A DNA stretch of 61,280 nucleotides from Oxalobacteraceae bacterium (lineage in GTDB: Bacteria; Pseudomonadota; Gammaproteobacteria; Burkholderiales; Burkholderiaceae_D). The DNA lies in the NCBI GenBank assembly GCA_023259175.1, contig JAHFQV010000009.1, positions 1-61,280 of the forward strand, read 5' to 3'. Positions 1 through 31,800 of this stretch are shown here, in pieces. Below the pieces are notes generated by a model, which was not told the DNA's origin, did not search any database, and worked only from the letters and a program-made list of their open reading frames with translations. A program made the translations under genes and the position numbers. Position 1 is the stretch's first letter; each line of letters opens with the position of its first letter.

Positions 1-119
1 CAACGGCTAACGCAAAAAAACATGCCAAAATTCGCTCTCTCTTGCTTATCCTCTGGTCGCAGCATGCTGCTTACCTATGTTGAGCGGTTTTTGGTTTTTT
101 TATTCATGCAATCGCCCTG
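1..119 (+). mobile_element. Partial MITE-like element (right arm)
   Basis: This is one arm of the repeat family whose complete copy lies at 30943-31162. Positions 1-119 match the reverse complement of about 30943-31076 almost base for base. It ends at 103-119 in the same 17-bp terminal sequence TTCATGCAATCGCCCTG. The main difference is a 16-bp deletion near position 55 between two CCTCTG direct repeats, as expected from slippage. The other arm and its target duplication are outside the window. The element ends 86 bp before the start of the ClpP-like gene. Confidence 0.8.
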
Positions 120-30476: not shown

Positions 30477-30746
30477 TTATTGCGCAGAAACGGCTGTTTT
30501 AGAACCAACAGTGCCGAATTTCTTACGGAATTTATCAACGCGACCTGCGGTGTCAACGATTTTATGTTTACCGGTGTAGAAAGGATGGGATTCAGCAGAA
30601 ACCTCGATCTTAACTAGTGGGTAGGATGCGCCTTCGAATTCAATCGTGTCGCGAGTATTGATCGTTGAACGGGTGATGAATTTGAAATCGTTGGAAACGT
30701 CGTGGAAAACGACTTCGCGATAATTTGGGTGGATACCGTCTTTCAT
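30477..30746 (-). CDS. rpmE2: 50S ribosomal protein L31 type B
   Basis: This 89-residue L31 starts [12 protein letters not shown]. The zinc cysteines of type A L31 are absent (only charged or neutral residues at these places), so it is the zinc-independent type B form. Type B is often made when zinc is scarce under Zur control; no clear Zur box was identified here. The ATG at 30746 follows AGAGGC. The upstream in-frame extension to 30773 has no family counterpart. Confidence 0.93.
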
Positions 30747-30932
30747 GCTTGCCTCTAAAATGTGGGTAGCCAATACGCACTTCGTCGATCGCCTTGCTTC
30801 TTGATCCGATTGTGTATCACTTGCCTAGGTGGATAAGGTCTTGGTTGGTCATCAGGATATTGTTTTTTTATCGTGATATCACAGCCAAGCCCTTGATTAT
30901 ACAATAAAATGAAATTTTTGCGTAAATCCACT

Positions 30933-30942
30933 GGAATATTAT
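30933..30942. repeat. Left target-site duplication (10 bp)
   Basis: GGAATATTAT directly precedes the left terminal inverted repeat of the element at 30943 and is repeated exactly at 31163-31172. Confidence 0.9.
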
Positions 30943-31162
30943 CAGGGCGATTGCATGAATAAAAAAACCAAAAACCGCTCAACATAGGTAAGCGGCATGC
31001 TGCGACCAGAGGCACAGAGGCGCAGAGGATAAGCAAGAGAGAGCGAATTTTGGCATGTTTTTTTGCGTTAGCCGTTGTAACTTTATGAAGTTCTCATGAA
31101 CTTCTCTGTGTCTCTGTGTTGAGTGGTTTTATGTTTTGATACGGCTTCATGCAATCGCCCTG
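30943..31162. mobile_element. Complete 220-bp MITE-like element
   Basis: The element begins with CAGGGCGATTGCATGAA (30943-30959) and ends with its exact reverse complement TTCATGCAATCGCCCTG (31146-31162). It is flanked by a perfect 10-bp direct repeat. The two arms are related beyond the termini (AAAACCGCTCAACATAG in the left arm, AAAACCACTCAACACAG in the right), so the RNA could fold back. It contains CCTCTGTG-type repeats and a GAAGTTC/GAACTTC hairpin. No transposase is encoded. It fills most of the gap between divergent rpmE2 and the TRIC gene. Confidence 0.9.
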
Positions 31163-31172
31163 GGAATATTAT
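31163..31172. repeat. Right target-site duplication (10 bp)
   Basis: GGAATATTAT repeats 30933-30942 exactly. Its last two bases are the first two bases of the TRIC gene start codon at 31171, and its GGA lies at ribosome-binding distance from that codon. Confidence 0.9.
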
Positions 31173-31800
31173 GTCCACCGTTTTACATTCTGGAATGAGT
31201 AATGCCCTTCATGCGGTCGAAGTGATCGGGGTCGTTGTTTTCGCGATTTCTGGTTTTGTCGAAGCACGTCAGAAGAAAATGGACCTAGTGGGTGTTTTTA
31301 CGGTGGCTTTTATTACCGCCTTTGGTGGTGGTACTTTGCGCGATATTTTATTGGATAGGCGACCTTTGTTTTGGGTCGAACATCAAGAGTATCCCATATT
31401 AATTTTTGCCTTGGTTATTTGTGCCACACCATTTTTTCGTCATTTACGTGCTGCAGTGGCTGATAAGGCGATCATCTATGCCGATGCGCTAGGTTTGGGT
31501 TTGTTTAGTGTGAATGGTGCTTCGCTCGCGGTTGAGGCACACATGCCCGCTTTTGTTTGCATCATGATGGGGGTGATTACGGGGATTTTTGGGGGTGTTT
31601 TGCGCGACATGATTTGTAATGAGATACCCCTTGTTTTTCGACGAGGGCATTTGTATGCGACATGTGCATTTTTGGGATGCAGCGTATTTTTAATCGCGAA
31701 CTTTTTACATGCGGGACAGTCTGTGGCGATACTGAGCGGTATTTTGACGACCTTGGTATTACGTGTTTTGGCAGTGCGATTTAATATGAGTTTACCTTAG
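31171..31800 (+). CDS. TRIC-type (YadS/YicG-like) cation channel family protein
   Basis: This 209-residue membrane protein has seven hydrophobic segments and two copies of the UPF0126/TRIC motif: FGGGTLRDILLDRRPLFW and FGGVLRDMICNEIPLVF. Bacterial TRIC proteins form trimeric cation-permeable pores; some members have been linked to transport of small substrates. The start at 31171 (MSTVLHSG) lies at the very end of the MITE. Longer in-frame starts would lie within the element and are artefacts. Transcription must now begin in or before the element. Confidence 0.88.
   Translation: MSTVLHSGMSNALHAVEVIGVVVFAISGFVEARQKKMDLVGVFTVAFITAFGGGTLRDILLDRRPLFWVEHQEYPILIFALVICATPFFRHLRAAVADKAIIYADALGLGLFSVNGASLAVEAHMPAFVCIMMGVITGIFGGVLRDMICNEIPLVFRRGHLYATCAFLGCSVFLIANFLHAGQSVAILSGILTTLVLRVLAVRFNMSLP

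Follow-up and report, generated by a model that had tools for sequence, protein, structure and literature searches.

Bacterial MITEs such as NEMIS, RUP and Nezha, among others, are described in the portion of PMC3733652 available to us as noncoding elements of 70-300 bp with TIRs of 15-30 bp and robust secondary structures. The 206-bp MITEAeca1 is named in PMC5756416, and no IS family was seen for it in the accessible part of that paper. A MITE with ISAs1 ends was not found in the literature searched, whose coverage is incomplete, and four literal strings from the core of the element described here did not occur in that literature. In this study, a 220-bp element with such ends was analysed in an Oxalobacteraceae bacterium. 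The window, that is, the whole stretch of DNA analysed (61,280 nucleotides), is contig C166 of a 4.03-Mb draft assembly of 233 contigs with 95.8% completeness. Its relevant features are as follows.

1..119, minus strand: second copy of the element, cut by the contig start; its end is an exact TIR at 103-119 (minus strand)
30477..30773, minus strand: 50S ribosomal protein L31 type B gene, divergent
30933..30942, no strand assigned: left target-site duplication GGAATATTAT, 10 bp
30943..30959, plus strand: left 17-bp TIR CAGGGCGATTGCATGAA, the same sequence as the ends of two elements with genes for ISAs1-family transposases, L103 and L086
30960..31145, no strand assigned: interior, an imperfect hairpin with CACAGAG arms resembling those of congeneric elements with other ends
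31146..31162, minus strand: right 17-bp TIR, the exact reverse complement of CAGGGCGATTGCATGAA
31163..31172, no strand assigned: right target-site duplication GGAATATTAT, overlapping by its final two bases with the start of the ATG at 31171-31173
31171..31800, plus strand: Glycine_transporter (PF03458) gene, a profile match (scanned from 31123) whose start codon was placed by eye from a congeneric alignment

The original prediction described a 220-bp unit at 30943-31162 whose 17-bp TIRs are perfect and which a 10-bp target duplication flanks on both sides; for 30933-31172 this proved exact. The unit was also said to encode no transposase; no ORF of at least 60 aa lies fully inside the 220 bp, and two listed ORFs cross its edges. 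A scan of the window for the TIR at up to 3 mismatches gave three matches, all exact, compared with a mean of 0.31 and a maximum of 2 in shuffled sequences. When folded, the element strand formed a long imperfect hairpin (-100.7 kcal/mol, z -10.1), and none of 200 shuffles was equally stable. An RNA-family reading was rejected, since an Rfam search of 30500-31600 gave no match up to E 1.

The element belongs to a dispersed, multicopy family in its own genome. BLAST gave 73 matches at E <= 0.001, with partial and reverse-arm matches counted apart, and the genome search for the TIR, as proposed earlier, gave 39 occurrences at up to 2 mismatches, while a backward control pattern gave 0. Four matches touch contig ends (C24, C87, C162 and C166), as repeats do in draft assemblies. 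The own loci that were fetched yielded 12 paired copies. Perfect 10-bp duplications flank six of these and are mutually different (GGAATATTAT, CTACGAATTA, GGTGGAAACG, GATTCGGGGC, CCTGTACGAC and GAATTTAGAG); the other six lack a perfect duplication. Across the 12 pairs, flank identity averaged 0.82 at length 10 and did not exceed 0.30 at any other length between 4 and 14. One own copy, of 480 bp (L018:1503-1982; G000:C227:35500-35979, where G000 is the own genome), holds a second, 253-bp MITE-like unit with 17-bp ends CCTAGAAACGGCAGTTG and a 5-bp repeat ATGAT (by eye); the CCTAGAAACGGCAGTTG ends were not found in the two own DDE_Tnp_1 loci checked. By eye, a palindromic module GGTAAGCRGCATGCTGC lies within the arms of several own copies (window:30987-31007 and L025:1449-1562), and in the 114-bp copy at L025 it replaces the CACAGAG part. 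Elsewhere in the own genome, a 3.4-kb contig (L068, G000:C215) carries a gene for a 568-aa IS1634-family transposase beside an ORF that looks recombinase-like by eye.

A search for the orthologous site in 43 genus genomes, the own included, gave matches in 41, and 29 congeneric loci were compared. Three of these (L210, L215 and L222) were dropped because the second flank was absent, leaving 26 loci with both flanks. The element was absent from all 26: between their flanks, no TIR was present at up to 4 mismatches. Ten of these loci are close to the length of an empty site, with spans of 197-232 against the 219 expected for the own site minus the element plus one duplication; in the remaining 16 the spacers are longer (267-849), so that the exact insertion site cannot be judged there. 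Empty sites in relatives, which the original prediction had proposed looking for, were thus recovered at about the expected length in 10 cases. To the left of the insertion is a conserved block, ATTATACAATAAAAT, and to the right the insertion directly precedes the presumed start codon of the PF03458 gene. The unit would have landed at this codon, with the duplication preserving the sequence just before it, and the insertion may affect expression of the gene. The description of the element as a transposed non-autonomous MITE is borne out by the many copies, the differing perfect duplications in 6 of 12 pairs and the absence at 26 of 26 orthologous loci: it is short, has no transposase gene, carries TIRs and a duplication, and is multicopy, dispersed and missing from related sites.

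The mobiliser was sought through the ends. A scan with the exact TIR, using one genome per species, gave at least 110 stretches in this sample, and 141 loci were scanned for paired ends. A full-length IS with the same ends, the third search proposed earlier, was found in other genomes. In Janthinobacterium CG3, three 1263-bp elements (L103, L107 and L121) are bounded by the identical 17 bp; perfect 10-bp duplications flank L103 and L121, and L107 shows 10 of 11 with a one-base offset. In a Burkholderiales MAG, an element of 1251 bp (L086) has the same ends without a duplication. The transposases of L103 and L086 belong to the ISAs1 family (NF033564; 414 and 396 bits, respectively, with a cut-off of 70), and their ORFs, those scanned among the four elements, also match PF13808 and PF01609. 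In a tblastn search, the L103 protein matched all seven of the longer elements tested, a set that includes L103 itself and covers part of the long TIR pairs found among the 141 loci; the Parasutterella (L112) and Sutterella (L175) MAGs in this set showed low identity to the L103 protein.

Within the genus, ISAs1 homologues were found in 5 of 43 genomes, and close ones in G039 (Oxalobacteraceae MAG Jr-11dec17-70) only. The copies in G039 are decayed, their main matches being 71-80% identical in pieces and either frame-split or interrupted by stops; in the two copies whose ends were measured, one end is exact and the opposite end has 2 mismatches. The exact TIR is likewise limited within the genus to the own genome and G039, and occurs with at most one mismatch in 7 of 43 genomes. 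No ISAs1 transposase was detected in the own draft (233 contigs, 95.8% complete) by a search that had no positive control of its own there, the same query matching 5 of 43 genus genomes. Because the own genome is a draft, the mobiliser may be lost or unassembled.

We consider it very probable (about 0.9) from the sequence comparisons that the element is a MITE which a DDE transposase of the ISAs1 family mobilises in trans. This enzyme would recognise the 17-bp ends and insert the unit, leaving the 10-bp duplication. The ends, the duplications, the absence from related loci and the family of the enzyme that accompanies these ends can be read from the sequences; transposition itself, and that the enzyme uses these ends, are inferred.

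The same ends also bound short elements elsewhere. Among the 141 loci scanned, 26 short pairs (115-373 bp) lie outside the own genome. Twelve have perfect 10-bp duplications (L062, L083, L097, L099, L106, L122, L128, L134, L145, L146, L154 and L159), four have one mismatch in 10 (L110, L133, L139 and L148), and ten have neither. The 12 perfect cases come from Accumulibacter, Rhizobacter, Herminiimonas, Azoarcus, Desulfobacter and other MAGs, and from one congener. By eye, their interiors vary from species to species and many are palindromic; 11 such interiors were folded.

Congeneric genomes share the arms of the element under other ends. The own arm CTCTGTGTTGAGNGGTTT is exact in 25 of 43 genus genomes, own included. 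In the class, an exact core 18-mer was found in one genome of 369, the own, versus 25 of the 43 genus genomes (again counting the own). A looser search of 294 family genomes reached one genome of another genus (G077), at the arm, and the 18-mer is present in four viral contigs, so that the restriction of the core to the genus is not strict. Viral-contig scans for two longer TIR patterns of the other classes gave 0. In seven genomes, the outward flanks of the arms sort by genome, by eye, into different ends: ISAs1 ends in the own genome, GTWACTRTTCAGC in G014, G016 and G024, GGCTATGTTCAGATTGAATG in G027, and, for G006, G008 and several of the own copies, no shared end. The GTWACTRTTCAGC class has an 8-bp duplication, perfect in 19 of 45 pairs (a count that includes two loci twice, with different left ends) and with a mean identity of 0.78 at length 8; at least one core arm is present in 16 of the 19 perfect pairs. 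In the GGCTATGTTCAGATTGAATG class, none of 13 pairs initially showed a perfect duplication at any length; with the end shifted out by one base, mean identity at 8 bp was 0.77, compared with 0.34 for mismatched pairs (n=13), and 2 of 13 duplications were perfect by eye. The mobilisers of these two classes were not found. IS66 was rejected as the mobiliser of the GTWACTRTTCAGC class: PF03050 occurs in only G014 and G016 of five genomes, and the 16 loci fetched have no such end at fewer than 3 mismatches. Both classes have 8-bp duplications and TTCAG in the end, so they may be related to each other, and the safe count of unrelated systems is therefore two. In G014 and G016, GTWACTRTTCAGC-type ends also enclose a CCCTTCTCCCG-type palindromic interior (L372, L391, L399 and L400).

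Interiors were aligned across classes. Eight pairs gave local alignments 12 to 44 standard deviations above dinucleotide shuffles, and three controls (another interior or a left IS part) gave -0.9 to 0.6 standard deviations. The G024 and G027 interiors align over 139 bp at 79%, and the own ISAs1 class shares with the other classes the arms only (36-62 bp at 84-94%). A second shared core, of the CCCTCTCCC type, under ISAs1 and 8-bp ends seemed likely by eye and was rejected, with no blastn match at E <= 1e-3. Naked cores, 31 of which were examined (possibly including L284, which has a remnant end by eye), had a mean longest flank repeat of 2.48 compared with 2.45 in the control; a transposon with its own duplication is thus unsupported for these naked hairpins. 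Naked cores of the own genome and G006 (L293 at G000:C30:27150-28200, L243 and L325) lie beside GTAGGGCGGGTGCAACCCGCG repeats, which look like the GTAG-tagged REPs in the available portion of PMC3733652.

The interior is not a remnant of the ISAs1 elements tested, and its arms are common to elements with other ends. Its lack of resemblance to these ISAs1 elements and the occurrence of its hairpin arms in MITEs of another system suggest that the ends were swapped while the hairpin persisted. At roughly even odds, the CACAGAG hairpin is a module, largely of one genus, carried by at least two unrelated transposition systems, perhaps three, and also present as naked copies, with IS ends exchanged around a retained hairpin that is the lasting unit. 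This modular reading is weakened because the ISAs1 class shares the arms alone (36-62 bp) with the other classes. Alternatively, a resident hairpin may have been captured by different IS ends, or the ends may decay around a hairpin kept by selection.

Other explanations of the element as a whole were weighed against transposition by an ISAs1-family enzyme. Some IS4-group elements would fit a 10-bp duplication, which speaks for the IS4-type transposase that the original prediction inferred from it. That inference fails, as the 17-bp ends of the element are identical to those of elements with ISAs1 transposases (L103 and L086). The two own DDE_Tnp_1 genes found do not suit it either: one is of the IS1634 family (327 bits, cut-off 100) and the other is IS1182-like (best match IS1182 at 177 bits, below the cut-off of 270), and no TIR within 3 mismatches was present in the fetched stretches around them. 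No IS4 element with CAGGGCGATTGCATGAA ends was seen among the longer elements tested, all seven of which match the L103 protein, and mobilisation by an IS4-type enzyme is thus highly improbable. MITEs usually arise by internal deletion, and derivation from an ISAs1 element in this way would account for the ends and the duplication length, which are the same as in ISAs1 elements. However, an interior shared with the parent IS was not found: similarity to three ISAs1 elements, the decayed G039 copy included, was no higher than to shuffles, so the element is not a simple deletion derivative of these three, and we regard this origin as doubtful.

A somewhat better case, although still an unlikely one, can be made for a hairpin with a host function that is kept in place, for example as a bidirectional terminator or an mRNA-end structure, with the transposon ends as a later or decaying addition. 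Hairpins without these TIRs exist in the own genome and in congeners, three congeneric locus pairs seem by eye to share flanks (L257/L328, L267/L271 and L276/L277), and the 31 naked cores have no duplication above control. In contrast, the copies bounded by TIRs moved, as their sharp 10-bp duplications and their absence at orthologous sites indicate. A terminator scan of 30700-31400 gave two sites compared with a shuffle mean of 0.7 (sd 1.0), and only one of them, on the minus strand, falls inside the element.

In sum, this study found an orphan bacterial MITE family that is linked to ISAs1 by its ends and duplication, by empty related sites and by the decayed copies of a congener. Should the modular reading be true, some dispersed bacterial hairpins are long-lived passengers that switch IS vehicle; this would explain the same repeat arms under different ends in sister species, and simple IS deletion would be the wrong default origin of MITEs for such families. 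Compared with known systems, the element is an ordinary new ISAs1-type MITE. The ISAs1-family IS (NF033564) represented by L103 of Janthinobacterium CG3 has the same 17-bp TIR and a perfect 10-bp duplication in two of the three copies of that strain; it differs in its 1263 bp, its 391-aa transposase and its interior, which is no more similar to that of the element than shuffles are. In size, TIRs, missing coding capacity and structure, the element resembles the bacterial MITEs in the accessible part of PMC3733652, but its ends are of ISAs1, and its arms are found again under other ends. REP elements inserted in long palindromes, described in that same part, are nested palindromic repeats, as here, whereas carriers with ends of different IS families are not described in it. 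The TIMEs, as far as the available text of PMC4133298 covers them, are likewise non-autonomous miniature elements with mosaic derivatives; their ends, however, are derived from Tn3, and their mosaics arise through mobilised plasmid DNA rather than through one hairpin under different ends.
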